Shown piece by piece: positions 8,157 through 25,128 of a stretch of DNA of 47,602 bases (positions are counted from its first letter, which is position 1; each line of letters opens with the position of its first letter). A program made the position numbers and the translations under genes. Origin of the DNA: Parcubacteria group bacterium GW2011_GWA2_43_11 (GTDB lineage: Bacteria; Patescibacteriota; Minisyncoccia; Phycocordibacterales; UBA12088); the NCBI GenBank assembly GCA_000998805.1, contig LCFC01000005.1, positions 1-47,602 of the forward strand, read 5' to 3'. The notes beneath the pieces are model-generated. The model did no database searches, had not been told where the DNA came from, and worked only from the letters and a program-made list of their open reading frames with translations.

Positions 8157-8163
8157 TAAAAAA

Positions 8164-8191
8164 TAAATACTAGTATTAATACTAGTATTTA
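8164..8191. repeat. 28-bp perfect palindrome TAAATACTAGTATTAATACTAGTATTTA between convergent genes
   Basis: Self-reverse-complementary; shares the ATACTAGTAT core with 1921-1970. Confidence 0.85.
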
Positions 8192-8220
8192 ATTTTTCAC
8201 TGCAGGCTATATATTTCAGT

Positions 8221-9219
8221 TCAAGATTTGTTTTGCGCTTTTAACTTTAAACATTCAACCTTTAACTTCTCCACAGCTTCTGCAATATTTTCGCAAGCAA
8301 ACAGCTCTACACGCAACTCCTTTGCACCTTTAAAATCCGTAACGTATGACTTGAAATGGCGCTTCAAGAGTGCGAAGCTTTTGTGTGCACAGAGCTTATC
8401 AAACGCTTTCGAATGCTCTATGAGCACCTCAAGCTTCTCCTCAAGTGTCGGTATCTTTTCTGAAAAAAGCCAAGGGTTGCCCAGGATACCTCTCCCTATC
8501 ATTACTCCATCCGCACCAGTCTCCATAGCGAGAGTGCGTGCTTGTACAGCACTATCGACGTCACCATTCCCAAAAATAAGCACCTTTTCCTTGTTTGAGA
8601 GTTTATCACGTATCTCCACAGCCTCACGGACATGTTCCCATCGAGCTGGTACATTTGAGAGTTCTTGACGAGTTCGTGCATGTACTGTAATAAGTGCAGG
8701 ATCTTCTTTGAGTAGTTCAGGAAGCCATGTTGATAAATCATTGTGGGCGTATCCAATACGTGTCTTTACTGAAACTGGTATTCTGCCTTGCGTGCCTTTC
8801 TTGGCACTTTGTATGAGCGCCCGAGCAAGCTCAGGTTTCTTCATAAGTGAAGCACCCGCTCCCTGCTTTTCAATAGCACGATATGGACAACCCATGTTGA
8901 TATCTACACCGTCGAATCCAAGCTCAGTTACTAATCGAGATGCGTACTCTATCATGTTAGGTTGTGCAGAAAAAAGTTGCGCTACGATAGGGTGTTCACC
9001 TGGTTCGTAAAATAGGTCTTTCATGAGGGGATTATCCGCATCAGGTATCTTGTGAATTTCGCGCGTATGGTAAAGCCCATCAGCGGAGACGAACTCTGTC
9101 CATAGCACATCTGGTTTTCCGTATTTTGCAATAATACTGCGAAAAGCAGGGTCCGTGATTTCGGCCATGGGTGCCAGAACAAGTACAGGTCTTGACAAAG
9201 TCTGCCAAAAATTATGCAT
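8221..9219 (-). CDS. dus: tRNA-dihydrouridine synthase (DUS family)
   Basis: VLAPMAEITDPAFR, GVDINMGCPYRAIEKQGAGASLMKKPELA, VSVKTRIGY, ITVHARTR, GADGVMIGRGILGNPWLF. Confidence 0.95.
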   Translation of the reverse strand: MHNFWQTLSRPVLVLAPMAEITDPAFRSIIAKYGKPDVLWTEFVSADGLYHTREIHKIPDADNPLMKDLFYEPGEHPIVAQLFSAQPNMIEYASRLVTELGFDGVDINMGCPYRAIEKQGAGASLMKKPELARALIQSAKKGTQGRIPVSVKTRIGYAHNDLSTWLPELLKEDPALITVHARTRQELSNVPARWEHVREAVEIRDKLSNKEKVLIFGNGDVDSAVQARTLAMETGADGVMIGRGILGNPWLFSEKIPTLEEKLEVLIEHSKAFDKLCAHKSFALLKRHFKSYVTDFKGAKELRVELFACENIAEAVEKLKVECLKLKAQNKS

Positions 9220-9466
9220 TACAACATAATAACTTCTAGGAATATTTCGTCAAATGGGTCGAGTACCGAGTAGCTAGTGACGAGTTAGCATATTTTTCAT
9301 TTATCACACCACTCTTTTCATCTCAGAACTTTTTCTCTCGCAACACGCACTCGCTGTACACACCACTCGTAACTCGCCTTACTTTTAACATTCAACCCCG
9401 TACCAGAGCAGAGCTCGGTACAGGGCTTCGCTTTAAACTTTCAACTTCGTAGGGTATACTTCATCA

Positions 9467-10504
9467 ATGTCAGGTGTCGCACTTTATAGAAAATACCGAC
9501 CAAACACCTTCGCTGAAGTGCTTGGACAAGAACATGTGATTACTGCACTTAAGGGAGCGATATCTCTTGCTAATATTAGCCATGCGTACCTCTTTGCGGG
9601 TACTCGAGGTACTGGTAAAACATCACTTGCGAGAATATTTGCATCAAATATTGGTACCAAGATGAGAGATCTTCACGAGATAGATGCCGCGAGCAATCGG
9701 GGTGTGGACGATGTACGAGCACTTCGAGAGGAAGTGCACACACTTCCGTTTGAGTCGACCTATAAGGTGTATATTATCGATGAGGTCCACATGCTTACTA
9801 AAGAAGCCTTTAATGCGCTCCTCAAGACTCTTGAGGAACCGCCAAAGCATGTGGTATTTATACTGGCGACAACAGAGTTAGAAAAGTTACCTGATACTAT
9901 TATTTCGCGATGTCAAACGTTTACCTTTAAAAAACCAACTACCGAGCTACTCAAGCAAATGGTACTTCGTGTGGCAAAGAGTGAGGGGTATACACTCGAG
10001 CCTTCAAGTGCAGACTTATTGGCACTTCTGGCTTCTGGTTCGTTTCGAGATGCACTTGGCTACGTACAACAAGTGATAGCAAGCTCAAAGGATAAGTCCA
10101 TAACACCTGAGGAAGTCGAAGCGGTAACAGGTGCACCGAGAAGCATGCAACTATTGAAGCTTGTTGACGCGGTCGCAGATGGAAATCTCGACAGTAGTTT
10201 GCACATTGTGCATGAGATAGCAGCTTCAGGACTCGATATGCGCACTGTCTTTGTCTTACTTTTAAGATTACTGCGTGCGATACTCCTTTTGCGTGCCGCT
10301 CCTTCACTTACGAATGAACTGCAGAAAGAGTTTACCGAAGAAGAGTATGTGGCACTTGTACGACATGCAAAAGATTCTAAAACACACATACACTCCAGGT
10401 TGCTCCTAGCACTGCTTGATGCACACATGCGCATCGGCACGACCTATACACCAGAGCTACCCCTTGAACTAGCACTTATACAACACCACGAAAACACACC
10501 ATAA
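9467..10504 (+). CDS. dnaX: DNA polymerase III gamma/tau subunit, short form
   Basis: ALYRKYRPNTFAEVLGQEHV, GTRGTGKTSLARIFA, EIDAASNRGVDDVR, YIIDEVHMLTKEAFNALLKTLEEPP, SRCQTF. Confidence 0.95.
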   Translation: MSGVALYRKYRPNTFAEVLGQEHVITALKGAISLANISHAYLFAGTRGTGKTSLARIFASNIGTKMRDLHEIDAASNRGVDDVRALREEVHTLPFESTYKVYIIDEVHMLTKEAFNALLKTLEEPPKHVVFILATTELEKLPDTIISRCQTFTFKKPTTELLKQMVLRVAKSEGYTLEPSSADLLALLASGSFRDALGYVQQVIASSKDKSITPEEVEAVTGAPRSMQLLKLVDAVADGNLDSSLHIVHEIAASGLDMRTVFVLLLRLLRAILLLRAAPSLTNELQKEFTEEEYVALVRHAKDSKTHIHSRLLLALLDAHMRIGTTYTPELPLELALIQHHENTP

Positions 10505-10515
10505 CACCAAATACT

Positions 10516-11202
10516 ATGTCCTCTGCAACAACAAAAAAACGAATATACTTTATCCGTCATGGACAGAGTATGGGAAACTTGCGACAAATTTTTCAAAATG
10601 CTGATGACCCTCTCTCAGAAGCGGGCACCATACAAGCGAAAATAGTGGCACGAAAAGCGCTATCGTTTAATGCAGACGTTATCCTTACAAGTCCGATGGT
10701 GCGAGCGTACCAAACAGCAGAGACGATACGGTTAATGACCAATCTTCCTCTTGAAACACTTGATACTCTTCATGAGTACAGAGCACCATCGAAGCTTAGG
10801 AATAAATCAGTAACCTCACCTGAAAGTAATGAGTTTTATAAGGAAATACTTGCGCACCTGCATGTACCTGATTGGCACTACGATGATGAAGAAAACTACT
10901 CCGACCTTTATGCTCGTGCGATATTACTTCTTGATAATCTTGCAGAACGGGAAGAGGAGACTATTATTGCTGTCACTCATGGTGCGTTTATGCGTATACT
11001 ACTTGCCACTATGATGACCGAGGGTAATGCGGATGCACTTACGGCGATACGGCTGGTGCGATTCTTGAGTCAAAGGAATACTGGTGTTACAAGTTGTGAG
11101 TACTCTCCTGAATCATACGTGGGGAACAAGTGGCGTCTCGTCGCTTGGAATGATTATTCTCACTTAGATACATCAACTTCCGAACAAACTCCTTTTATGT
11201 AA
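10516..11202 (+). CDS. Histidine phosphatase (phosphoglycerate mutase-like) family protein
   Basis: YFIRHGQSMGN RHG motif; TSPMVRAYQTAE; VTHGAFMR. Confidence 0.9.
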   Translation: MSSATTKKRIYFIRHGQSMGNLRQIFQNADDPLSEAGTIQAKIVARKALSFNADVILTSPMVRAYQTAETIRLMTNLPLETLDTLHEYRAPSKLRNKSVTSPESNEFYKEILAHLHVPDWHYDDEENYSDLYARAILLLDNLAEREEETIIAVTHGAFMRILLATMMTEGNADALTAIRLVRFLSQRNTGVTSCEYSPESYVGNKWRLVAWNDYSHLDTSTSEQTPFM

Positions 11203-11204
11203 TC

Positions 11205-11867
11205 ATGAAGCACATCTATTTTCTTCGTCACGGGCAGACACTCTTTAATAAAAAAATGAGACATCAGTATGCAAGTACTCCTCTTTCAGCAGAAGGGAGA
11301 GATCAGGCTCGCGCTATTGCAAATAAAATTAAAAAGCTACATATAGATTATATTCTTACAAGTCCCTATGAACGTGCAAAAGAAACTGCAGAGCTTGTTG
11401 CGGAAGTGATAGGGAACCCACCTATCGAATGTTCCGACTTACTGGTCGAACTTCGACGACCAAAAACACTACATGGCACGAGCTGGTTTTCTCCAAAGTC
11501 GGTTTGTATTATGGGTTTAGTATACCTTTTTGCATCACGCAAAAACTGGCACTTCAGTGATGAGGAAAACTTAGAGGAATTTCGCACGCGATCTAAAGAG
11601 GCTCTTGATTACATTGTGAGCAAGGAAGGGAAGAATATTCTTGTAGTTACACATGCTGGTCTTATGTCGAATTTTATTAGCAGTATAAAACACGATGGTT
11701 TAGACTCACTTCACGAATACAAACGAGCACTTTGGAAAACACTCCGTATCGGAAACTGCGTTTTTGTGAGTGCAAAATGGTCCCCGAGAGGTACATATGG
11801 AGAAACACTTGATGGCACGTGGAGTATTGAGGGGTCTAAAACATGCCCGAAAGTTGTTAACAATTGA
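11205..11867 (+). CDS. Histidine phosphatase family protein (tandem paralogue)
   Basis: YFLRHGQTLFN; TSPYERAKETAE; VTHAGLMSNF. Confidence 0.9.
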   Translation: MKHIYFLRHGQTLFNKKMRHQYASTPLSAEGRDQARAIANKIKKLHIDYILTSPYERAKETAELVAEVIGNPPIECSDLLVELRRPKTLHGTSWFSPKSVCIMGLVYLFASRKNWHFSDEENLEEFRTRSKEALDYIVSKEGKNILVVTHAGLMSNFISSIKHDGLDSLHEYKRALWKTLRIGNCVFVSAKWSPRGTYGETLDGTWSIEGSKTCPKVVNN

Positions 11868-11907
11868 ACAGCTATAACATGTAATGTTGTATGCTATCAT
11901 GGTTCTA

Positions 11908-12606
11908 ATGATAGCAAAACAACAAGAAAAAGAAAAAGCGATTCTGCTTCGTAAACAGGGAAAAACATACAGTGAAATACTCAAAGAAATTCATGTTGCA
12001 AAGTCATCTTTATCACTTTGGTTTCGTGAAGTTAAGTTGTCCAAACCTCAAGTACAGAAAATCACACTGAAAAGAAAGAATGCACAAATAAAGGGTGCAC
12101 AAGCAAAAAGAAGTCAAAGAATAAGTCGTGAAAACATAATTATTGCTGAAGCAAGTAATCAAATTGGTATATTAACAAATTTTGAATTTATGCTTGTTGG
12201 AATAGCACTGTATTGGGCAGAAGGATCAAAAGCAAAACCTCACAATATAAGTCAGGGTGTAGACTTCGGAAATAGTGATGCAAATATGATTTCTATTTAT
12301 ATGGAGTGGCTTCGCAAGTCTCTTAAAGTATCGAACGAAAGAATTACAATCAGTCTATATATACATGAAAATAGTAAATATAAAATTAATGAAGTAATAC
12401 AACACTGGTTAAAGATTACTAAATTACCTAAAACGCAATTTCAAAATGTTTTTTACAAAAAACATAATCCAGTAACAAAAAGGAAAGTAATTCAAGATTC
12501 TTACTTTGGACTATTGAGAGTAAAAGTAAAAAGAAGCACAGATTTAAACCGCAAAATACAAGGTTGGATATTGGGAATAACAAGAAACTGTGGTAGTCTA
12601 TCGTAG
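11908..12606 (+). CDS. HTH protein with a possible LAGLIDADG-like C-terminal domain (start re-assigned from 11884)
   Basis: N-terminal HTH (AILLRKQGKTYSEILKEIHVAKSSLSLWFR) plus ALYWAEGSK...VDFGNSDANMISIYMEWLRKSL...ITISLYIHEN. The endonuclease-like assignment is by eye. Confidence 0.6.
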   Translation: MIAKQQEKEKAILLRKQGKTYSEILKEIHVAKSSLSLWFREVKLSKPQVQKITLKRKNAQIKGAQAKRSQRISRENIIIAEASNQIGILTNFEFMLVGIALYWAEGSKAKPHNISQGVDFGNSDANMISIYMEWLRKSLKVSNERITISLYIHENSKYKINEVIQHWLKITKLPKTQFQNVFYKKHNPVTKRKVIQDSYFGLLRVKVKRSTDLNRKIQGWILGITRNCGSLS

Positions 12607-12609
12607 TAT

Positions 12610-12683
12610 TGCCGGATCGTCTAATGGTAGGACTTCAGCTTTTGGCGCTGAATATCTAGGTTCGAGCCCTAGTCCGGCAGCCA
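12610..12683 (+). tRNA. tRNA-Gln (anticodon TTG), CCA encoded
   Basis: Acceptor TGCCGGA/TCCGGCA, D-arm GTCT-AATGGTA-GGAC, anticodon arm TCAGC-TTTTGGC-GCTGA, T-arm CTAGG-TTCGAGC-CCTAG, then G-CCA. Confidence 0.95.
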
Positions 12684-12776
12684 AGCACCAGTCGGTGCTC
12701 GGCAAGCAAGTACTGTGTGGTACATGACTTGTCGACATCGCTACTGTGCTTGGGGATGTACTGTATAGTACGTCCC
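12684..12776 (+). other. Cluster of hairpins immediately 3' of the tRNA
   Basis: AGCACC-AGTC-GGTGCT (12684-12699) and GGGATGTACT-GTAT-AGTACGTCCC (12753-12776). Confidence 0.6.
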
Positions 12777-12794
12777 TTGGTACAGTAAAAGTAT

Positions 12795-13058
12795 ATGTCC
12801 TTTCAGTATGTATATGTGTTACAGAGCATCAACAAAGATTTTTTATATATTGGGTGTACTTGTGATTTAAAGCGTAGACTGAAAGAGCATAACAACAAAG
12901 AAGAGTTATCTACAAAACACTACGCACCATTTAAGCTAGTGCACTATGAAGCGTATCTAAATACAAAAGATGCACATCGAAGAGAAATCTATTTAAAAAC
13001 TTCGAAAGGGAAGACGACTCTGCGTACAATGTTGAAGGAGTATTTTGAAAGTGCTTAG
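12795..13058 (+). CDS. GIY-YIG domain protein
   Basis: YVYVLQSINKDFLYIGCTCDLKRRLKEHN...HRREIYLKTSKGK. Confidence 0.9.
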   Translation: MSFQYVYVLQSINKDFLYIGCTCDLKRRLKEHNNKEELSTKHYAPFKLVHYEAYLNTKDAHRREIYLKTSKGKTTLRTMLKEYFESA

Positions 13059-13210
13059 TTCGTGCCTGACTTATAAAAACAGGTTCTCGTGCACTGTGCG
13101 TGTAGGAAAAGAGTCTTGTTAGACAGGAAAAATGAAATCCAACAAACAGCATATTGCATCAAACTTTGTAAAAGTATTTTAAAGGTGTCAACAATTGCTA
13201 TAATAAATGT

Positions 13211-14194
13211 ATGGGGGAAATCCTTAAAAAAATTAACACACAATATGGATTAAACATATCTTCCTCTGAAATGGTAGATAAAGGTTTTCTCAGTAAAAAT
13301 TATATTCTTACTGGTGAAACTACAAAGTACTTTCTAAAAAAATATCGCTTCAACAAAGAAGAAAAAATACAGGAAATTCATGCTGCAAAACAGTATTTCG
13401 CAGACGGTGGAATTCCAGTTATCCTTCCGATTGTAAATAATGTAGGACAGACATATTTCTCTTTTGAGGACGGGTACTATGCAATCTTCCCATGTATCAA
13501 CGGGCGCCACATTGAAAGAGGTAATCTCACTGAAGCAGCAACGATTTCTTTAGGGGAAATGCTTGGGAAGATGCACCTTCGAAGCAAAAAATCCACACTT
13601 TCAATACAAGATCATTTTAACGGTTGGGATAAGGGAAAGTTTATCGCACAGGCTGAACAACTTATTTCGATTATTAATGCAAAAGAAAAACTTGATGAGT
13701 TTGATATAAATGCCTTGGAGGGAATACATATTCGAAAAGAATTAATTCAAGCCAATACTGTTACTTTTGAAGATTTAGCTATCCCTAACAACTGTTTGAT
13801 TCAAGGCGATTATCATGATGAAAACGTTTTTTTTGATGAGAATGACCATGTACAATATGTTTTTGATTTTGAAAAAGTTTCTTATGCGCCACGAGTATTT
13901 GAGTTGATTCGGTCTATGATGTACATGTTCTTTAACGAAACGCTCGAAATACAGAGAATTGAACTAGCGAGACTGTATATTGAGGTTTATTCAAAAATGT
14001 ATCCGATTTCGAAAGAAGAATTACAGAAAGGTTTAAAACTGCATTATCTTCGACAACTTCATAGTTTTTGGGTTGAAAGTGAACATTATATAAACAAGAA
14101 CTATCGCGTTGATCAATTTCTGGTTGGCAAATATAAATCCACCCAATATCTCTCAAAAAATTTAAACGTACTAGCTGATAAATTATTTACTTAA
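13211..14194 (+). CDS. Phosphotransferase (aminoglycoside phosphotransferase/homoserine kinase-like)
   Basis: NNCLIQGDYHDENVFFDENDHVQYVFDFEKVSYAPRVFEL = catalytic HGDxHxxN...DFE-type motif. Confidence 0.8.
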   Translation: MGEILKKINTQYGLNISSSEMVDKGFLSKNYILTGETTKYFLKKYRFNKEEKIQEIHAAKQYFADGGIPVILPIVNNVGQTYFSFEDGYYAIFPCINGRHIERGNLTEAATISLGEMLGKMHLRSKKSTLSIQDHFNGWDKGKFIAQAEQLISIINAKEKLDEFDINALEGIHIRKELIQANTVTFEDLAIPNNCLIQGDYHDENVFFDENDHVQYVFDFEKVSYAPRVFELIRSMMYMFFNETLEIQRIELARLYIEVYSKMYPISKEELQKGLKLHYLRQLHSFWVESEHYINKNYRVDQFLVGKYKSTQYLSKNLNVLADKLFT

Positions 14195-14220
14195 GTCAGT
14201 ATTTAAAGAGGAGTTAATCG

Positions 14221-14394
14221 GATAACAGCTTATGGAAATTAAATCAGACATCGGAACTCGCAGTAAAGACATCCTTCGAGGTGTTTTTACGTAGAGCTGG
14301 TGGAGTAAGTAAACAGCCACCAATTGGCGGATTGCTCGAGTACAAATTGCAAAGTATACATCTAGAAACATGGAACTCCTCTACGAGGCCTTAA
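14221..14394 (+). pseudogene. Possible coding relic without a start codon
   Basis: Frame 14221-14394 reads DNSLWKLNQTSELAVKTSFEVFLRRAGGVSKQPPIGGLLEYKLQSIHLETWNSSTRP* with no upstream ATG before a stop. Confidence 0.3.
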
Positions 14395-14502
14395 CAAGAA
14401 TTTCATCAAATGATTGCTAAAATTATAACATGGACCTGAAGTCTGTTTTTGTGAATAGACTATGGAAACAGAAGGTACCATTATTAGTAATCAATAAAAT
14501 AT

Positions 14503-14922
14503 ATGAACAAAATGAATCCAGTAGCCCACTTTGAACTGCCAGGAGAAGACATGGAACGCATGAGAAAGTTTTATGAGGATACTTTTGGCTGGGAAACAAA
14601 TCAATTAGGTAAAGATATGGGTGAATATGTTGTTGTTCACACGACAGAGACTGATAAAAATGAGATGGTAAAAACCCCAGGCACTATTAATGGTGGGTTT
14701 TACAAGAAAACGAGTGATGTTTTAAGCCAATACCCTTCCGTGGTTATTATGGTGGACGAAATACAGGAGGCAATGAAAAAGGTAAAAGAGTCCGGTGGAC
14801 AAGTGATTGGAGGTCAAAAGAAAGACGGTACACCAGACGAAATTCCTGGCGTCGGACTTTTTGCGTCCATTATTGATACCGAAGGTAATCGTATTAGTAT
14901 TTTGCAACCAAGGAAAGTGTGA
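14503..14922 (+). CDS. VOC (glyoxalase/bleomycin-resistance-like) family protein
   Basis: MNPVAHFELPGEDMERMRKFYEDTFGWE ... GVGLFASIIDTEGNRISILQP. Confidence 0.9.
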   Translation: MNKMNPVAHFELPGEDMERMRKFYEDTFGWETNQLGKDMGEYVVVHTTETDKNEMVKTPGTINGGFYKKTSDVLSQYPSVVIMVDEIQEAMKKVKESGGQVIGGQKKDGTPDEIPGVGLFASIIDTEGNRISILQPRKV

Positions 14923-15039
14923 TAAAAATGTAAAATTATCCTGTGCCACAAATAGGGACAGTCCATTTTCTCTAAGTATGATTGAGAACAAAAACATAGG
15001 GTTTTTAATCATTTCAAAATTATATGCTAGAGTTATGTC

Positions 15040-15678
15040 ATGAATAGTAAAAAACTACTACTTAGTGGTGGGGGAGATGAAGTTGTTGCAAAAGAATTCA
15101 ACGATTTCTATGCAAGCCTTTTACCTTCTAAACCTAAGGTGCTGTACATCCCTATTGCATGGAAGTCGGCTGATTTTGATGCATGTTTAGATTGGTTTTC
15201 TGGCACGTTTAGCAAACTCGGTTTCTCTATTGAAATGCTTACAGACTTAAAAAGTGCAAAGGAAGATTATGTAAGCAAATTCGATTCAGTATATATAGGA
15301 GGGGGAAATACATTCTCTTTACTGTATGATTTACGTGAGTCAAATTTTCTAGGAATTCTTCAAAACTATTTAGCTTCAGGAAAACTGGTGTGTGGGGGAA
15401 GTGCGGGAGCAATTATATTTGGAAAAGATATCCGTACTGCATCATTGGGTAAAGATTCAGATACGAATGAAGTCGGGCTTACCGATTTTTCAGGTCTTAA
15501 CCTGGTCAAGGAGTATGCTGTCCAATGTCACTACGAAGCTAATCAATACATAGAGTTACAAGAGTATGCAAAGAGGGGAGCAATGAATGTCTTTGCTTTA
15601 CCTGAAGAAAGCGGTTTGTTTATAGACGGTAATACTATACAGCATATTAATGAAGTCATTGAAATTAATGCGCTGTAG
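15040..15678 (+). CDS. Peptidase S51 (dipeptidase E-like) family protein
   Basis: LLSGGGDEVV; YIGGGNTFSLL; VCGGSAGAIIFGKDI (nucleophile GGSAG); CHYEANQYIE. Confidence 0.85.
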   Translation: MNSKKLLLSGGGDEVVAKEFNDFYASLLPSKPKVLYIPIAWKSADFDACLDWFSGTFSKLGFSIEMLTDLKSAKEDYVSKFDSVYIGGGNTFSLLYDLRESNFLGILQNYLASGKLVCGGSAGAIIFGKDIRTASLGKDSDTNEVGLTDFSGLNLVKEYAVQCHYEANQYIELQEYAKRGAMNVFALPEESGLFIDGNTIQHINEVIEINAL

Positions 15679-15752
15679 TTTCTTTCAGTCTTCCTGAATA
15701 AAATATGAAATTGAAAGAAAAGGTACATTTTTTTATATAACACTGGAATCTT

Positions 15753-16145
15753 ATGGGCTTACACCATTCGGCAGCTATCATAATCCAAGATCAAAAAGTC
15801 TTGTTTATCAAACGTTCAACACTGGAAGATTCCGAACCAAACAAGTGGTGTGCCCCGAATGAGACTCTAAAGGAAAATGAATCACCCGAAAGTGCTGTTG
15901 TTCGTGGTGTACAAGAGGAACTTGGATTGAGGTTTGTTATTTCTAAACAACTTTCTAATCACTCGTACCTGGGACATACAACCTTTGTATTTCTAGGCAC
16001 TGCTGAAGGAGAGATTGTTCCAAACCCAGATGAAGTTGCTGAGTATGCTTGGTTTACATATACAGATGCCATGCGTTTAGAATTTGCGTATGGGTATGAC
16101 AAGGTTATCAAAAACTTACACAACTTGGCACTGCTGGCTGACTAA
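15753..16145 (+). CDS. NUDIX hydrolase
   Basis: NETLKENESPESAVVRGVQEELGL = NUDIX-box-like segment. Confidence 0.85.
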   Translation: MGLHHSAAIIIQDQKVLFIKRSTLEDSEPNKWCAPNETLKENESPESAVVRGVQEELGLRFVISKQLSNHSYLGHTTFVFLGTAEGEIVPNPDEVAEYAWFTYTDAMRLEFAYGYDKVIKNLHNLALLAD

Positions 16146-16196
16146 AATTTACCTGTTATAATCCTTTACTCTAATAGTTACATTGGTTAAAGAAAC

Positions 16197-16838
16197 ATGA
16201 AAATTACAGGATCAAAAGACACTATCGATTGGTATGATAGCAATGCGGAAAAGTATTGTGCTGGTGGTGATAAGGTGACCTTCGAGAACAATGCAAAAAT
16301 CCTTCTTGGTAAATTAAAGTCAAATCCAAAAGTGCTTGATGCCGGTTGTGGGGATGGTCGTGATTCACAGACACTGAGTTCTTTAGGTGCCACTGTGGTT
16401 GGAATTGATTTATCTCAAGGAATGATTGAACTAGCTAAAAAGAATAGACATGGTATTCAATTTTTACATGCAGATTTTCTTAGTATACCGTTCCCAGACG
16501 CTTCGTTTGATGGTATCTGGTCGCATGCTTCACTTGTTCACTTAGATACCCTGATAGAAGTCAAACAGGCTTTGGATGAGTTTAACCGAGTATTGAAACC
16601 AGAAGGTTGGTTGTATATTTACGTTAAAGAACAGAAGGGTTCCGAAGAAACAGCGATTGTATCAGATTCATTATCAAACCATGAAAGATTTTTTAGATAT
16701 TTTACAAAAGAACAACTATCAACACTCCTTGAGGAATCAGGATATATGGTTGGAGATGTCACCATTGTAGAAGATTTTCATGGAAGGAAAGAAATTTTAT
16801 GGATAAGAGTATTTGCAGGAAAGATATCTGACAAATAA
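16197..16838 (+). CDS. Class I SAM-dependent methyltransferase
   Basis: VLDAGCGDGRDSQTLSSLGATVVGIDLSQGMIELAKK. Confidence 0.9.
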   Translation: MKITGSKDTIDWYDSNAEKYCAGGDKVTFENNAKILLGKLKSNPKVLDAGCGDGRDSQTLSSLGATVVGIDLSQGMIELAKKNRHGIQFLHADFLSIPFPDASFDGIWSHASLVHLDTLIEVKQALDEFNRVLKPEGWLYIYVKEQKGSEETAIVSDSLSNHERFFRYFTKEQLSTLLEESGYMVGDVTIVEDFHGRKEILWIRVFAGKISDK

Positions 16839-16908
16839 ATAATTGGTTATTTGGGATAAGTATCCCCAATAGTACATCCATGTTGCATTCAACTTTTAAA
16901 TAAAAACA

Positions 16909-16932
16909 CCCGACAGTTTTGAGACTGTCGGG
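16909..16932 (-). terminator. Intrinsic terminator for the small gene 16958-17266
   Basis: CCCGACAGT-TTTGAG-ACTGTCGGG with a U-rich tail on the minus strand (TGTTTTTA). Confidence 0.8.
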
Positions 16933-16957
16933 CGTACTTAAGCGAGGGAGGGATGGA

Positions 16958-17266
16958 TCAATACCTGTTTCGTGATTCATCTCGGTATTGCTGATCGGGA
17001 TTAGTCCATTTCCATTTATTGTATTGAGGTGTTTTGTAGGTGGGGCGGGGAGGAGGATTTGGTCTAACGTTGGTTAGAACTGGTGGCTCGTTAAACCAAT
17101 TCTCACCATCACAGGAGTACAGTCTTCTATACACTGGCCCTCCAAACTTATTCAACTCTCTTTTTTGTTCAAACGTCTTCTCTTGAAGGTTACACCTTCC
17201 CTCGCATATTGTAGCAGATGAGAAGATGACAAATATTCCAATTACAAGACAACATAGTGTTTTCAT
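16958..17266 (-). CDS. Small secreted Cys-containing protein, unknown function (start re-assigned to MKTLCC)
   Basis: Signal peptide MKTLCCLVIGIFVIFSSATICEG; GGGGGGAAG directly upstream of the internal ATG acts as SD. Confidence 0.65.
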   Translation of the reverse strand: MKTLCCLVIGIFVIFSSATICEGRCNLQEKTFEQKRELNKFGGPVYRRLYSCDGENWFNEPPVLTNVRPNPPPRPTYKTPQYNKWKWTNPDQQYRDESRNRY

Positions 17267-17353
17267 ACTTCCCCCCAAAATGGTTATGGAACAAAGGATT
17301 TTGCTTCACTTTCTTAGTATGTTATACCACGTATTTGCAAAATGTATATTTAC

Positions 17354-17381
17354 TTGACAAAGTCACACAAACATGTATAAT
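17354..17381 (+). promoter_or_regulatory. Consensus sigma-70-type promoter TTGACA-N16-TATAAT
   Basis: TTGACA at 17354-17359, TATAAT at 17376-17381. Confidence 0.8.
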
Positions 17382-17387
17382 ATATGC

Positions 17388-17584
17388 ATGTTCTTATAAA
17401 AATTGTTTGTGCTACGTTCAGCTGGTAACTGAACTAGAAAACTGGGCATTGATGCTGTCGATGATGGACAACGGCTCTTAGACAAGCGTACAGTGGTACG
17501 TATGGCATATTAGACTACAGGTCCTGACATGCCCAAAAGCACAAAAAAACAAACGGTCTGGGGGATGCCTAGGCCGTTTTTTTA
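17388..17584 (+). ncRNA. Candidate structured non-coding RNA, about 195 nt
   Basis: Consensus promoter, intrinsic terminator, no plausible CDS. Perfect pairings: TTTGTGCT(17406-17413)/AGCACAAA(17538-17545); GTTCAG(17416-17421)/CTGAAC(17429-17434); TGGGCAT(17443-17449)/ATGCCCA(17529-17535); CGTAC(17487-17491)/GTACG(17496-17500). Confidence 0.7.
17552..17584 (+). terminator. Intrinsic terminator of the candidate ncRNA
   Basis: AACGGTCT...AGGCCGTT stem (one G.U) ending in TTTTTTT. Confidence 0.85.
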
Positions 17585-17651
17585 TAAGATTAGGGACACC
17601 AAATAACACAAGGGCAGGATTTCTCCCGCCCTCGCTTCACATGGTATACGT

Positions 17652-17978
17652 TTACACAATCTTCACATTACGTGGCTCTTCTCCATTCATGCTTCGACGA
17701 ATGTCACCATAGTAGAGGTTTTCTTTAATTTTTATAACGATTATTTCCCTCTCTATGATTACATTATAGAAATGTCTCCATATTTTGTACAAAAAATACA
17801 AAAGACCACAACTCAGAATACATGCTCCAAAAAGATTATTACCTTCTGTAAAAAATAAATAACCCGTATAAACGATTACCCCAGTACCAAAGAGACTGAA
17901 AACAAACAGTACTCTTAATAATGGTTTTGTTGTTCCTTTATTCGCTGCAATAACCACTTCTTTGGATATTGTTGGCAT
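17652..17978 (-). CDS. Small two-TM membrane protein, unknown function
   Basis: 108 aa with two hydrophobic helices; AAGGGGGTAACC-ATG start region. Confidence 0.65.
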   Translation of the reverse strand: MPTISKEVVIAANKGTTKPLLRVLFVFSLFGTGVIVYTGYLFFTEGNNLFGACILSCGLLYFLYKIWRHFYNVIIEREIIVIKIKENLYYGDIRRSMNGEEPRNVKIV

Positions 17979-18141
17979 GGTTACCCCCTTGGTTGAGTTC
18001 GAAGTATACGGACCATTTTTCTAATGTCAGTATAGCATTATAAGTATGTGGTGGTGATGGCAATTGGAATAATACTATTTAGTTTTGAATCTTCCTCAAA
18101 AACTTGCAATATTAGGCAATGTGTGTTAATATATACAAATC

Positions 18142-18252
18142 ATGAATACAAACATGTCACAACTACATAAAAACAATAACGAGCGCATTGTCGTTGCGAG
18201 CGTTATTGGAGCATCCTCTGAAATAAAGTGGCATGTTGTTATAAGTATTTGA
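18142..18252 (+). CDS. Possible 36-aa micro-ORF upstream of the ABC exporter
   Basis: MNTNMSQLHKNNNERIVVASVIGASSEIKWHVVISI*; ends 33 nt before the exporter GTG start; no clear SD. Confidence 0.3.
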   Translation: MNTNMSQLHKNNNERIVVASVIGASSEIKWHVVISI

Positions 18253-18284
18253 TTACCTACTAAAAAAATCGATTTCTTAGAACA

Positions 18285-20051
18285 GTGTGCCGAAAGCACA
18301 CCAAGAAAACATGGCTTTACTCAAAAGGTAATCGAAAGAAAATAGTCACTTTCTGGTCTATGTTTACCATGGCCCAGATTGTTGAACTTTTCTTCCAACC
18401 TTTGGTCTGGGCAGCTATTATGAACATTGTTCAGAAAGAAGGTATCACACAAGAAAGTTTTAGGAAGATGTTTTTCCTCCTGCTTTTGACGTTTGTAAGC
18501 GATCTGCTGTTTTGGGTTTTCCATGGACCTGCAAGGGTTATGGAACAAACCAACTCCTTCATGGCACGCATGCACTATCGCAAGTCGCTTCTCAAAGGAG
18601 TGATGACACTTCCGATGGAATGGCATGTCGACCATCATTCAGGTGACACGATAGACAAAATTGAGAAAGGAACACATGGTTTGTATTCCTTTTCTCAAGA
18701 AAGTTTTCTTGTTATCTATGCAGTCGTCAACCTTACAGGAAGCTATGTGATACTAGTCTACTTCAGTCCGCCCGCAGCATTTATCGTCCTCGCTATGCTC
18801 ATGATGAGTGCTTGGATAACCATTCGCTTCGACAAAGTACTGATGACTCAGTATAAGGAGCTCAACAGAGCGGAAAATCAAATCTCAGAAGGCGTTTTTG
18901 ACGCTATCTCAAACATTACCACGGTGATTATTCTGAGAGTCGAGAAGTTGGTCTTCAAGGCACTTGTCAACAAGATAGAAAAGCCGTTTGCGCTCTATAA
19001 GAAGAATGTAACGATAAGTGAAACAAAGTGGTTTTTAACCAATGTCTGCGCTACAGTGATGACTATCATCGTGATGACGGTCTACTTTTGGCAAAACATG
19101 AACACAGCACAAGGGGTGTTGATAGGTAGTGTCTATTTACTTACCAAATATCTTGGTCAGATCAGTCAGCTTTTCTTCAGATTTACCAGTATGTACAGTG
19201 ATATCGTGAAGTACAAGTCTCGTGTCCTGAATGCGGAAGAACTTTCGGAAGATTTTGTGAGTGAAAATTTCACGAACCATGTTTTACCTACTTCGTGGCA
19301 ACATCTTAAAGTGAGAGATCTCAATTTCTCATATCATGGTGATAGCAACGAAGCACTGCATCTTGAAGACATCTCGTTGTCTATTATGCGAGGTGAACGC
19401 ATAGCCTTTGTAGGTGAAAGTGGCAGTGGTAAAACGACGCTTCTTAAAATTATTCGGGACTTGTATCACCCACGAAGCTTAGAACTTACAGTGGATGAAA
19501 AGAAAATCCCCGAAGGTTTCAGAGGTATCAGTCGCGCGATTGCTCTTGTACCGCAAAATTCGGAGATTTTTGCTAGCACAATATTGGAAAATATCACGTT
19601 GGGAGCAGAGCACGATTTGGATTTTGTACGACAGTTTACCGACATGGCATGCTTTACGGATGTTGTTCTAAACTTACCAAAGAAGTTTGACTCTTCAAAC
19701 AAAGAAAAAGGTGTCAATCTTTCAGGTGGTCAACAACAACGCCTAGCTCTCGCGAGAGGACTGCTTGCATGCCATGATAAGGATGTGGTACTACTCGATG
19801 AACCAACGTCGAGTCTTGACACTGCCACAGAGATGAAAGTCTACAGAAACATTTTTCGAGAGTTTCAAGAAAAAACGATTATTTCATCTATTCATCGACT
19901 TCATCTTCTGCCATTGTTCCACAAGAGCATAGTCTTCAGTGGAGGTAGGATTATCGCTTCTGGAAGTATTTCAGAACTGGTTAAGAACTGCCCTGAGTTC
20001 CGAGAGTTATGGTATCGGTATCATGAACAAGACGTTACGATGGTAAATTAA
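18285..20051 (+). CDS. ABC exporter (fused TM + ATPase half-transporter)
   Basis: Walker A GESGSGKTT, signature LSGGQQQRLALARGL, Walker B DVVLLDEPTSSLD; N-terminal TM domain. Confidence 0.92.
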   Translation: MCRKHTKKTWLYSKGNRKKIVTFWSMFTMAQIVELFFQPLVWAAIMNIVQKEGITQESFRKMFFLLLLTFVSDLLFWVFHGPARVMEQTNSFMARMHYRKSLLKGVMTLPMEWHVDHHSGDTIDKIEKGTHGLYSFSQESFLVIYAVVNLTGSYVILVYFSPPAAFIVLAMLMMSAWITIRFDKVLMTQYKELNRAENQISEGVFDAISNITTVIILRVEKLVFKALVNKIEKPFALYKKNVTISETKWFLTNVCATVMTIIVMTVYFWQNMNTAQGVLIGSVYLLTKYLGQISQLFFRFTSMYSDIVKYKSRVLNAEELSEDFVSENFTNHVLPTSWQHLKVRDLNFSYHGDSNEALHLEDISLSIMRGERIAFVGESGSGKTTLLKIIRDLYHPRSLELTVDEKKIPEGFRGISRAIALVPQNSEIFASTILENITLGAEHDLDFVRQFTDMACFTDVVLNLPKKFDSSNKEKGVNLSGGQQQRLALARGLLACHDKDVVLLDEPTSSLDTATEMKVYRNIFREFQEKTIISSIHRLHLLPLFHKSIVFSGGRIIASGSISELVKNCPEFRELWYRYHEQDVTMVN

Positions 20052-20068
20052 AAAGCCATTCACTAACA

Positions 20069-20106
20069 ATAGACCGCCAATGCGAAAGCAAAGGCGGTCT
20101 ATCTTT
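20069..20106 (+). terminator. Intrinsic terminator after ABC exporter
   Basis: ATAGACCGCC...GGCGGTCTAT then CTTTT. Confidence 0.8.
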
Positions 20107-20226
20107 TGAAAAATGGTATTAAGTACAATGTATTTTTGAAAACGTTGACACAATAATGGTTTATTGGTAAAACCTGGACAGGAAACGATACGATCTAAAC
20201 AACTTTCATTGGAAAGGAGGCACTTT

Positions 20227-20595
20227 ATGACAACAGGAAGGGAAAATGCGAACCCAAATGTGGCACCGTACTATATAGATTTGCAAGGTAAATCCATCGT
20301 TCAAGTGCTTTGGTTGCTATCAAGCGCCGGCTTCACAGTGAGTGCAGTCAAAACAAGTATGTGGAATTCACGTCCTGACACACGGTGTGGAAAAGACGAG
20401 CCTGACCCGCCGGTATTTGTCGTATGGATAAACGACGGTGAAGCGGAGAAACTCACTGTTAAAAATAGTGGCGATGATAAAATAACACTTTTACCTGGAC
20501 ATGATTTACACTACTTTACTGCACCAGAAAGCGTTAAGTACATTTTCAATGATGCAGAATGGTGTGTCATAAAGAGTTTGCATGTAATGAGGTAA
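20227..20595 (+). CDS. Hypothetical protein, 122 aa (start re-assigned from 20164)
   Basis: Strong SD AAGGAGG just upstream of ATG 20227. Confidence 0.65.
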   Translation: MTTGRENANPNVAPYYIDLQGKSIVQVLWLLSSAGFTVSAVKTSMWNSRPDTRCGKDEPDPPVFVVWINDGEAEKLTVKNSGDDKITLLPGHDLHYFTAPESVKYIFNDAEWCVIKSLHVMR

Positions 20596-20626
20596 TTTGA
20601 GACAACGTTTTTTGGAGGTACTAGCT

Positions 20627-20851
20627 ATGTACTTGGAAGAAATCAAAGTTGTTAAGGAATATCCACTCATACTTTTGCTAAGACTTTCTGATGGTGTGAG
20701 TGAAGGACGTTGGGATGCTGCTGAAAACTTTGCTGAACTTTTTGCTGAAGTTAGGATACAATGCCCTAATATTCAGTTTCAGTTCATACCCTTTACATAC
20801 AAAACAGTTGGGAACTGTACAGCGGTAACATCAATACTTGCCATTGGCTAA
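20627..20851 (+). CDS. Hypothetical protein, 74 aa (start re-assigned from 20597)
   Basis: SD TTGGAGG upstream of ATG 20627; MYLEEIKVVKEYPLILLLRLSDGVSEGRWDAAENF... Confidence 0.6.
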   Translation: MYLEEIKVVKEYPLILLLRLSDGVSEGRWDAAENFAELFAEVRIQCPNIQFQFIPFTYKTVGNCTAVTSILAIG

Positions 20852-20883
20852 CGCTCACGGAATTCGCTTCTTGTGAGCGTTTT
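20850..20883 (+). terminator. Intrinsic terminator
   Basis: AACGCTCAC...GTGAGCGTT followed by TT. Confidence 0.7.
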
Positions 20884-21025
20884 CCGATATTTCGTAACAA
20901 GTGTTACTTACATATTACGATTTATTGCATATATTTTTGTTTTAAGCTAAGGTACCTTCAGAATCTAAGTAATTTGACAAATACATGTAGGTAACGCAGT
21001 CTCTCTCAACAAATGGAGTGATGAT

Positions 21026-22195
21026 ATGACGAACATGACATATGCAGGCACGGGTGTGAACTACGATGAGATGGATCCCTTTAAACGGAAAGCACAGCTT
21101 GCCGCGCGAGAAACAGCCGGAAACATCGCTCGTCTCAATAGCGGTGAATTTCGAGAATTCAAACCATCAAGAGGCGAAAGTGCATACTTGATTGAAGCGG
21201 CCAAAAGCTACTTTGCTCACGTCGAGGAAGGTCTTGGTACCAAAAACTTGGTCGCGGATGCAATGTATGATCTCACCGGTAAGTCGTATTACAATAACAT
21301 TGCTCAGTGCACTGTTGCCATGATTGTAAACGATATAATCACACTCGGAGCACTTCCGCTTTCAGTGGCGATGCATATCGCCGTATGTAATTCAGACTGG
21401 TTTAATGACGAACAACGTTCCGATGATCTTATAGCTGGTTGGAAACATGCGTGTGATCTCGCTCGTTGTGTCTGGGGTCCAGGCGAGACACCAACATTAA
21501 ATGGTCTTGTGGTCTCTGAGAAGTCACTACTCGCAGGCTCAGCAATGGGAATTATAAAACCAAAGGAGAGATTAATTACTGGAAACATCCAACACGGCGA
21601 TGTAATCGTCATCATCGAAAGCTCAGGCATACATGCCAACGGCCTCACTCTAACGAGACATATAGCTGAACGTACAGATGGTTTTTGGAGAAAAATGGGA
21701 CATAGATTATTTCCTCATACCATCAACCTACGTGCACTGCAAGATGGGTATCTCACACTACTTCCTGACGGCAGAACCTATGGAGAAACCCTGCTTGAGC
21801 CGACTTTGATTTATGTCGACGTCGTCGAGGACTGCCTTGATGCTGGTATCGACATACACTATGCGGTAAATGTCACGGGCCACGGTTGGCGCAAGTTTAT
21901 GCGAGCAACTCAACCTTTCACGTACGTGATAGATACCCTCCCAACTCAGTTACCCATCTTTAACTTTATACAGGAGCATGGACCGGTTGATGATTTGGAA
22001 GCGTATGGTAACCTCAACATGGGTGCGGGGTTTGCGCTGTACGTACCCGAGAGTCAAGGGAAGCAAGTCGTTGAAATCGCCAAGCATCTTGGTAAATGCG
22101 CATTTATTGCTGGCTATATTGAAAAAGGTGAAAAAAAAGTAATAATTCGCCCGAAAAATATCGAATTTGCCAGTAAAACACTGGCGGTTCGGTAA
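21026..22195 (+). CDS. PurM-like (AIR synthase-related) protein
   Basis: TYAGTGVNYDEMDPFKR; VIVIIESSGIHANGLTLTR; AVNVTGHGWRKFMRA; NLNMGAGFALYVPE resemble PurM blocks. Confidence 0.8.
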   Translation: MTNMTYAGTGVNYDEMDPFKRKAQLAARETAGNIARLNSGEFREFKPSRGESAYLIEAAKSYFAHVEEGLGTKNLVADAMYDLTGKSYYNNIAQCTVAMIVNDIITLGALPLSVAMHIAVCNSDWFNDEQRSDDLIAGWKHACDLARCVWGPGETPTLNGLVVSEKSLLAGSAMGIIKPKERLITGNIQHGDVIVIIESSGIHANGLTLTRHIAERTDGFWRKMGHRLFPHTINLRALQDGYLTLLPDGRTYGETLLEPTLIYVDVVEDCLDAGIDIHYAVNVTGHGWRKFMRATQPFTYVIDTLPTQLPIFNFIQEHGPVDDLEAYGNLNMGAGFALYVPESQGKQVVEIAKHLGKCAFIAGYIEKGEKKVIIRPKNIEFASKTLAVR

Positions 22196-22255
22196 AACGT
22201 TCCTTATTGAAGGTAATACATTGACTAGTTTCGGCTATAGATGTGTTTGATATGT

Positions 22256-22296
22256 AAACCGTCAGAGAAGAATAGCTCTCTGACGGTTTAATTTTT
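22256..22296 (+). terminator. Strong intrinsic terminator (12-bp stem)
   Basis: AAACCGTCAGAG...CTCTGACGGTTT followed by AATTTTTT. Confidence 0.9.
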
Positions 22297-22415
22297 TACG
22301 CAACAGTAATTCTGTTATGGCCAGTTTGGGAAAATTGGTGGTAATCGTACGGCTTTGTTATTCCAAAAAGTAATGCGTGTGACACTCAGAGAGTGTAGAA
22401 TAGTACATAATCTGC

Positions 22416-22898
22416 ATGCATCCATTACCAAAAAAATTTAAACATTTACGGACCGATATTTGGCGTGAGGGCAAGTGGCTTGACCTTTGGAGCGTTGTGC
22501 ATGTGCTCTCGGGGTTGCTCGTTGGTTTCTTTTTTTACTTCTTGCATTTGGATGCTGTTTTTGGAATGATACTCGCGGTAGTAGTACTTACCGCATACGA
22601 ACTGTTTGAGATATATGCAGAAATTGAGGAAGCTCCTACCAACAGGTACATGGATATTGTTGTTGGTATAGTGGGGTATGTTCCTGCCTTTTTTCTTATA
22701 TCACCAATTCTTACAAAAGAGGACCTTATACTAACTTTTGTATTGCTACTGGTACTCAACAGCGTCCTAAGTGTCAGTGGTTGGCGCGCATCTCAGAAAG
22801 CGCTTGATATTGAAAAGCACCTTCGTACAAGACTTACTGCTGACCGCAAACGGCTAAAAGAACGAAGTAAGCGCTTTCGTTCAAAACACCATTTTTGA
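22416..22898 (+). CDS. Four-TM membrane protein, unknown function
   Basis: Multiple hydrophobic helices and a basic C-terminal tail. Confidence 0.65.
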   Translation: MHPLPKKFKHLRTDIWREGKWLDLWSVVHVLSGLLVGFFFYFLHLDAVFGMILAVVVLTAYELFEIYAEIEEAPTNRYMDIVVGIVGYVPAFFLISPILTKEDLILTFVLLLVLNSVLSVSGWRASQKALDIEKHLRTRLTADRKRLKERSKRFRSKHHF

Positions 22899-23036
22899 GT
22901 ACCATTTACCTTCTTAACTTACATGTTGTACATTCCTGTTTCCCGAGAATCGGGTGATTATACTGCGTGTTTATGTCATTTTTACTAAACTTTGCTATAC
23001 TGCAGTTTACGAAATTATTTTTTGATTCATATATTT

Positions 23037-23480
23037 ATGCGTATAAAAAATTACACCATTGATATTCAAAGTTCAGAAGGTCTAGAATTTATCGATGTAA
23101 CAGACAAGATTAATGAGGCAATTACAACTCATGGACCAAAAGATGGAATTGTGAATATCCAAAGCCTCCACACAACTATGGCAGTACTAATAAATGAAAA
23201 TGAGCCTCTTTTAATCAAAGATATGAAGGCAATGCTTGAGCGTCTTGCACCGAGCAATATAGAATACCACCACGACAACTTTGATATTCGAACAGTGAAC
23301 ATGTGCGATGGGGAATGTGACAATGGTCATTCACATTGTAAGGCAGTGCATTTATCTCCTGCACAGATTCTCAACATAGTCGACGGCAAGCTACAACTGG
23401 GAACATGGCAACGTGTTTTTGCACTTGAGTTAGATCGTGCACGACCACGACAACTCGCACTACAAATGATTGGTGTTTAG
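23037..23480 (+). CDS. YjbQ/UPF0047 family protein (start re-assigned from 22992)
   Basis: IDVTDKINEAI, GIVNIQSLHTTMAVLINENEP, QLGTWQRVFALELDRARPRQLALQMIG. Confidence 0.92.
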   Translation: MRIKNYTIDIQSSEGLEFIDVTDKINEAITTHGPKDGIVNIQSLHTTMAVLINENEPLLIKDMKAMLERLAPSNIEYHHDNFDIRTVNMCDGECDNGHSHCKAVHLSPAQILNIVDGKLQLGTWQRVFALELDRARPRQLALQMIGV

Positions 23481-23536
23481 AATTTTCTAGATACGAGGGG
23501 CAAGAAAAGTGCCGAAATATTTATTTTTTGAACAAT

Positions 23537-23563
23537 AAAGCCCCCGATTTGCTCGGGGACTTT
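23537..23563. terminator. Intrinsic terminator between convergent genes
   Basis: AAAGCCCCCGA...TCGGGGACTTT with one mismatch, T-rich both ways. Confidence 0.75.
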
Positions 23564-23675
23564 TATGTTTGTTTTATAGCACACATGTTTTAGCACCTAT
23601 ACAATACTAAGAAATATGTTTATTTAAAATATCTTCAAACAATAAGGCAATCTATTGCTTGAATCTATCAATAAG

Positions 23676-24296
23676 TCACAGATGCACTATTGGGGAAGAT
23701 ATTAAGATATTGTTAGCATCTAAATCGTTGCGCATAGCCTCTACAGTAAGACCGCAGCCTATTGAACTGTTTGCGATGAGCATGTTCAACATTCCAACAA
23801 CTTCACCTCTGGTGTTGAAAACGGGCGCACCTGAGCTACCGAAGAAGCGAGCTATTTGATACAAATAGTTTTGGCCTACAAACGGCGGTTCTTTGTCAAT
23901 GAAACCGTCCTTCATTACGTAGCCGTAGCTGTATGAAAAAGAAAGTAGTTTATAGTTTATAGGATGACTAATCATGTGGACATAATCAGCAATCTTTGCG
24001 TTACATTTTGCAAGTTTTAGTGGAGTAAGACCATGGTTTTCATCCTTGATTTTTAATACAGCCAGATCAATATTAGGTGATCTGTATAGGACCTCAAGGT
24101 TTATTTTTTTGTCTTCAGCTTTTTTAGTGATTGCGTAATAGATAACTTCACTGTTTTCTACTACGTGTTTAGCCGTAAGTAACAAGTCGTTTCCAATATA
24201 AAAACCTGTACCATGTCCAAGTGAACTTTGGATTATTACAACTGAATTTACGTGTGTGTCGTATGAGAATGCGGGACTCTCAACTTTTTTACCCAT
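23676..24296 (-). CDS. Trypsin-like serine protease lacking an obvious signal peptide
   Basis: LLTAKHVVE (His), NIDLAVLKI (Asp), FFGSSGAPVFNTRGEVVGML (Ser); SD AAGGAGGTGG upstream. Confidence 0.85.
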   Translation of the reverse strand: MGKKVESPAFSYDTHVNSVVIIQSSLGHGTGFYIGNDLLLTAKHVVENSEVIYYAITKKAEDKKINLEVLYRSPNIDLAVLKIKDENHGLTPLKLAKCNAKIADYVHMISHPINYKLLSFSYSYGYVMKDGFIDKEPPFVGQNYLYQIARFFGSSGAPVFNTRGEVVGMLNMLIANSSIGCGLTVEAMRNDLDANNILISSPIVHL

Positions 24297-24452
24297 TGTG
24301 GTGTATTACCACCTCCTTTTTTACGTCTATTCAATTTTCAAAAAACGGTTAATGCCACTATTACAAACAAGGCATCTCTACATTTCAATATAGCACCAAT
24401 CTGTAATAAAAAATGGATAATTCACACCCAGGTATAAATAAATGTGATTTAA

Positions 24453-24551
24453 GACAAAGATATACACAAATTATGCCCCGAAGAAGTCGAGGAGTGCTAC
24501 TGCGCTCTGGAGCCAGCAATCCTTAGCTGGATCGAGTGGGTAAACAGGTAA
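24453..24551 (+). pseudogene. Coding-like fragment without a start codon
   Basis: DKDIHKLCPEEVEECYCALEPAILSWIEWVNR* follows a stop; no ATG/GTG/TTG in frame. Confidence 0.3.
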
Positions 24552-24578
24552 ACGAACGTTCTTTTCACTAAAATCTTT

Positions 24579-24611
24579 CCCGCCACGTTGCAAGACGTGG
24601 CGGGAATTATT
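24579..24611 (+). terminator. Strong intrinsic terminator
   Basis: CCCGCCACGT-TGCAAG-ACGTGGCGGG then AATTATTTTT. Confidence 0.85.
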
Positions 24612-24729
24612 TTTGCCACCAAATCAAATTCTATTTCAAAATGTACCACTGAAAATTATCTTAGGTCATAGTTCACAGTACGCGATTGCGGCCCGCTACA
24701 CATACATGCTTATATGAGTAATACTAATC

Positions 24730-25128
24730 ATGATTAAAACATTCATGTCAAAAAAAATTATCATATTTTCAGTTTGTGCTGCGCTTTTTTTATTTTTCAT
24801 TTTCTGGTTACTGTTTTATAGAAATTCAATACAAAATACTGGTGAGACTTTCCTTTCTTGGAATGCCTCAGAAGGAGATATAGAAGGGTATCGTGTGTAT
24901 TATGGTACAAATCCACGAACCGATTCTTGTCCGCAAGGTGGCTATACAGAAAATGTAGATGTAGGAAACACTACTCAGTACACTCTCACAGGTCTAGAAA
25001 ACAACACCACATATTACTTTTCAGTTACCTCATATAACTCAAGGAAAATAGAAAGTTGTTTTTCAGAAGAGGTGAGTAAGGTAGTTACAATAAGTCTAAT
25101 GGATAGGCTAAAAAATATTATTAAATAA
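24730..25128 (+). CDS. Single-TM protein with one FN3 domain
   Basis: N-terminal TM, then FLSWNASEGDIEGYRVYYGTNPR...YTLTGLENNTTYYFSVTSYNS. Confidence 0.85.
   Translation: MIKTFMSKKIIIFSVCAALFLFFIFWLLFYRNSIQNTGETFLSWNASEGDIEGYRVYYGTNPRTDSCPQGGYTENVDVGNTTQYTLTGLENNTTYYFSVTSYNSRKIESCFSEEVSKVVTISLMDRLKNIIK

Follow-up and report, generated by a model that had tools for sequence, protein, structure and literature searches.

A candidate structured RNA gene shared by two sister species of Parcubacteria at non-orthologous sites

The window analysed here is the whole stretch of 47,602 nucleotides from contig LCFC01000005.1 of Parcubacteria group bacterium GW2011_GWA2_43_11. Within it, two small opposite-strand genes flank a locus carrying the signals of a plus-strand RNA gene (Table 1). 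A sequence-only reading had proposed that this locus encodes a structured non-coding RNA with its own TTGACA-N16-TATAAT promoter and a U7 intrinsic terminator, and both signals were recovered: the promoter is exact (motif score 12/12) and is the single occurrence in the window, against 0.03 expected by chance, while the terminator consists of a stem-loop followed by T7. Its remark that the only plus-strand open reading frame begins upstream of the promoter was essentially right (a 74-aa frame, 17257-17481). Downstream, the adjacent gene (17652-17978) is encoded on the minus strand, and a co-directional gene first starts 700 nt on. Two further features of the window are a 106-aa putative secreted protein (16958-17278, minus strand), which has no Pfam match and for which the searched parts of the sister genome yielded no relative, and a very long, 2169-aa ORF (32282-38791) in a genome of ~0.93 Mb.

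Table 1. Positions of the predicted RNA gene and its structural elements in the window.
Feature	Position	Strand	Remarks
Sigma-70 type promoter TTGACA-N16-TATAAT	17354..17381	+	Exact match
Predicted ncRNA transcript, ~195 nt	17388..17585	+	Promoter, terminator, homologue at E 2.4e-15
Conserved box TGTTCTTA, predicted transcript 5' end	17389..17396	+	Identical in homologue; putative start site
P1, 5' strand	17406..17413	+	Partner strand 17538-17545; both copies retain the inner 5 bp, GUGCU/AGCAC
Side hairpin GUUCAG/CUGAAC	17416..17434	+	Invariant stem; the loops of the two copies differ
P2, 5' strand	17443..17449	+	Pairs with 17529-17535; two double compensatory pairs, one one-sided change
P4, 5' strand	17452..17458	+	Pairs with 17502-17508; both copies form 7 bp, with a compensatory C-G to U-A change
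27-nt internal loop, conserved sequence CGAUnAUGnnCAAnGGCUC(U)UAGAnnA	17459..17485	+	Unpaired in consensus fold; presumed functional core
P3 hairpin GCGUAC/GUACGU	17486..17501	+	One double compensatory, one one-sided change
P4, 3' strand	17502..17508	+	Partner of 17452-17458, common to both copies
P5 small hairpin GACU-ACA-GGUC	17513..17523	+	Inside conserved GACUACnGGUCCUGA; stem invariant
P2, 3' strand	17529..17535	+	Pair-by-pair count over two copies
P1, 3' strand	17538..17545	+	Pair-by-pair count over two copies
Intrinsic terminator, 12-bp stem + T7	17551..17585	+	Stem-loop 17551-17579, then T7

When folded with its terminator, the region 17380-17590 was more stable than 200/200 dinucleotide shuffles (z = -4.1). 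A covariance model built from the window RNA sequence alone (R1) returned one homologue in a same-genus genome (E = 2.4e-15), that of the sister species Parcubacteria bacterium GW2011_GWD2_42_14 (LCCS01000031.1, 1358-1498, minus strand). The homologue keeps the core, the -10 TATAAT and, where the 5' end is expected, the TGTTCTTA box; no recognisable -35 was found when looked for. Its 3' end is likewise a stem-loop followed by a T run; the stem sequence differs. The two copies are identical at 112/156 ungapped columns, and the homologue's own fold is of modest stability (z = -2.0). The consensus fold calculated with RNAalifold reached -26.4 kcal/mol compared to a mean of -11.3 for column shuffles that preserved match, mismatch and gap classes, none of which (0/1000) was as good (z = -4.9).

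The single-sequence minimum-energy fold proved wrong in the interior, and the two-sequence consensus takes its place. This consensus is a rod built of P1-P2-P4-P3, from which two side hairpins branch. All four helices of the sequence-only reading are present in it and nest, namely P1, the hairpin at 17416-17434, P2 and the CGTAC hairpin (P3, 17486-17491/17496-17501). Two elements were missing from that reading's list: P4, which is also absent from the single-sequence fold, and P5, which is kept in the homologue. Both of the larger unpaired stretches belong to the 5' side: one of 29 nt (hairpin included) faces 2 nt, and the other, of 27 nt, faces 0 nt. Within the 27-nt loop, a pairing of GUC with GGC (17457-17459/17473-17475) may form.

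Counted pair by pair, 97% of the positions are paired over the two copies, compared to 28-43% once the partners are slid by 1-3 columns. Compensatory changes in relatives, the check that had been proposed for this fold, were found as four double changes in three helices (two in P2, one each in P3 and P4); the homologue has lost the pair that closes the P3 loop. Neither P1 nor the side hairpin carries covariation evidence, since their conserved cores are invariant. With two sequences compared, at least four double changes were reached by 30/500 pair shuffles. Because there are only two sequences, the covariation comes down to these four pairs and is suggestive, short of final.

Window positions 7244-25123 are broadly syntenic with the homologue's contig, and the RNA copies lie at different places there. 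In the sister species, the RNA is found within a 1.6-kb insert between a protease gene and an FN3 gene, alongside a saccharopine-dehydrogenase-like gene. In each genome the place where the other species carries the RNA was searched for a remnant of it, and none was found. The copies differ more than the surrounding genes (median ortholog identity between the two species, 89%) and occupy separate insertion sites in one hypervariable syntenic region. Two blocks of the window are missing from the sister species' syntenic contig: 12680-17831, with small enzymes and the RNA, and 18041-20923, with an ABC transporter and two small genes. Both sit between tRNA-Gln and an AIRS-domain gene. The AIRS-domain protein (window 21026-22195) occurs, within the family, only in the two RNA-carrying species, a co-occurrence that may be due to how closely they are related and not to any functional connection. 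On the sister contig (LCCS01000031.1, 7116-7338 and 6070-6168), the tRNA-Gln 3' end is followed by a perfect 99-bp sequence, past which stands a second copy of the tRNA-Gln 3' end (GAGCCCTAGTCCGGCAGC). The 99-bp sequence is repeated ~1 kb off, on the far side of a 284-aa gene; another contig of the window's genome carries 41 bp of the sequence. The arrangement in the sister species looks like an integration site or a small mobile element.

The search for further members was extended well beyond this pair. BLAST of the RNA against 60 related genomes found no relative, and the weak matches at E up to 10 were rejected as unrelated DNA. Covariance models built from both sequences found no third member in 387 class-level and 397 order-level genomes, nor did a core-pattern search of 382 phylum-level genomes and the GTDB contig collection. 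Three model matches at E 0.004-0.01 (genomes G333, G798 and G1066) lay within or antisense to protein genes and lacked the 3' core; all three were rejected as chance because the two order-level matches among them lost score when the correct helices were added to the model. A core-pattern match in Saprospiraceae was rejected because it had no covariance-model support. Plasmid and phage DNA collections gave no match to the RNA, and it was absent from congeners that are 92-100% complete.

The RNA was then compared with known classes. Across the whole window, Rfam 15 at the gathering score reported a tRNA only and nothing at the RNA locus; at E up to 10, the window RNA stretch and its homologue returned only noise. 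The earlier statement that the RNA belongs to no recognised family thus held under the Rfam check. Like tmRNA (RF00023) it is a structured stand-alone RNA, but it lacks the tRNA-like domain. A tmRNA identity was rejected, since a tRNA-like domain plus tag reading frame is missing and ARAGORN found no tmRNA in the window; the genome's own tmRNA was found elsewhere. A cis-regulatory leader or riboswitch was also rejected: such a role is unlikely because the next gene is convergent, the RNA ends in a terminator and no co-directional gene lies close by. Orphan structured ncRNA motifs from intergenic comparative genomics are known in bacteria (PMC2864571, PMC8632094, PMC11109978). The window RNA resembles these motifs in being intergenic and structured, with compensatory changes and no assigned function, whereas they come from other genome sets and here there are two members in one CPR genus with no Rfam match, a comparison of general kind rather than motif by motif.

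Could the locus be unexpressed intergenic DNA whose promoter and fold are fortuitous and which the two species share by recent descent alone? The identity of the two RNA copies is 73% ungapped and 67% gapped, compared to medians of 81% and 62% for orthologous intergenic DNA between these two species, and is thus not clearly above it, as this explanation would have it. The evidence for an RNA is therefore the shared fold at non-orthologous sites rather than simple conservation. That fold outdoes every one of the 1000 column shuffles, and with the copies at non-orthologous sites their sharing is left unexplained by passive descent in place; we consider a chance origin decidedly improbable. A small mRNA is less probable still, to the point of being hard to credit. 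It would be translated from a 24-codon core frame starting at ATG 17452 (homologue sequence, MLSIMSKGSRGAWKGMYDILDYGS), and in the homologue this frame is open to a TGA, with a few of the differences synonymous. In the window copy, however, one extra base ends the frame after 9 codons. Substitutions fall 5/6/6 at codon positions 1/2/3 by hand count, with no third-position excess, there is no well-spaced ribosome-binding site, and the changes in P2, P3 and P4 are paired instead. The promoter, terminator, homologue and covarying fold are established by sequence, and a real structured ncRNA gene at the locus is very likely. Given the lack of a third member in the searches made, the non-orthologous sites and an identity no higher than that of intergenic DNA, the family is narrow, fast-evolving and locally moved.

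How such an RNA might act was considered under several models. A base-pairing regulatory sRNA would use the 27-nt stretch, which is conserved and unpaired in the consensus, to pair with the translation starts of target mRNAs. A joint search of 349 ortholog starts in both species gave best duplexes of -20/-22 kcal/mol, and the best joint duplexes, at rpmF-like and GspF-like leader regions (about -20 kcal/mol), included some matched changes. The result was promising with 60 controls, but not with 600, where the best target was equalled by 42/600 permuted controls (p ~0.07) and the best-five mean by 119/600, so that base pairing with target mRNAs is neither supported nor refuted by the search. 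The conserved core also exceeds the usual seed in length, and Hfq was not found by tblastn in parts of both genomes, which counts against this mode; we regard it as doubtful. The 6S-like architecture suggested by the sequence-only reading fared worse than its proposal of a structured ncRNA bounded by a promoter and a terminator of its own, which the homologue with compensatory changes upholds. 6S RNA is a housekeeping RNA whose central bubble mimics an open promoter; it binds RNA polymerase and templates a product RNA. The window RNA is similar to 6S RNA (RF00013) in standing alone, in its length of ~195 nt, in having a terminal stem that closes the RNA and in its terminator, and in 41 genomes of the order a 6S covariance model gave no canonical 6S above cut-off, while control genomes do match. 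Against a functional analogue that sequesters RNA polymerase, the locus has no Rfam 6S match, the consensus lacks a large symmetric central bubble, and the distribution is very narrow for a housekeeping RNA, congeners of 92-100% completeness being without it. Such an analogue is very unlikely.

Taken together, these observations favour, as the more probable reading from sequence, an independent gene for a new, lineage-restricted, stand-alone and trans-acting structured ncRNA of a small Parcubacteria lineage. The RNA is narrowly distributed, probably new as a family and ordinary in kind. In the proposed mechanism, the locus would be transcribed as an independent gene, and the folded rod would position the GACUACnGGUCCUGA segment and the 27-nt stretch at 17459-17485, which is conserved and unpaired, for recognition by a partner, a protein being likelier than one dedicated mRNA. 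The length of the conserved core and the failure to find Hfq both favour a protein partner, which is proposed tentatively as the main mode of action. It is rather unlikely that the RNA represents a protein-partnered structured class that travels as a self-contained promoter-to-terminator cassette; the different sites of the two copies, and their greater divergence than that of the genes around them, are what would be expected of a small RNA gene that is mobile or has been acquired repeatedly, not of a core regulator.

No paper on ncRNAs of reduced CPR bacteria was found in a full-text literature search, and to judge from their genomes the CPR cells studied here seem to be without Hfq and a recognisable 6S RNA. 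For such cells, a new family of structured ncRNA whose fold can be tested would offer a first handle on RNA regulation. Moreover, the changed place of the RNA between sister species opens RNA-gene turnover in CPR genomes to study.
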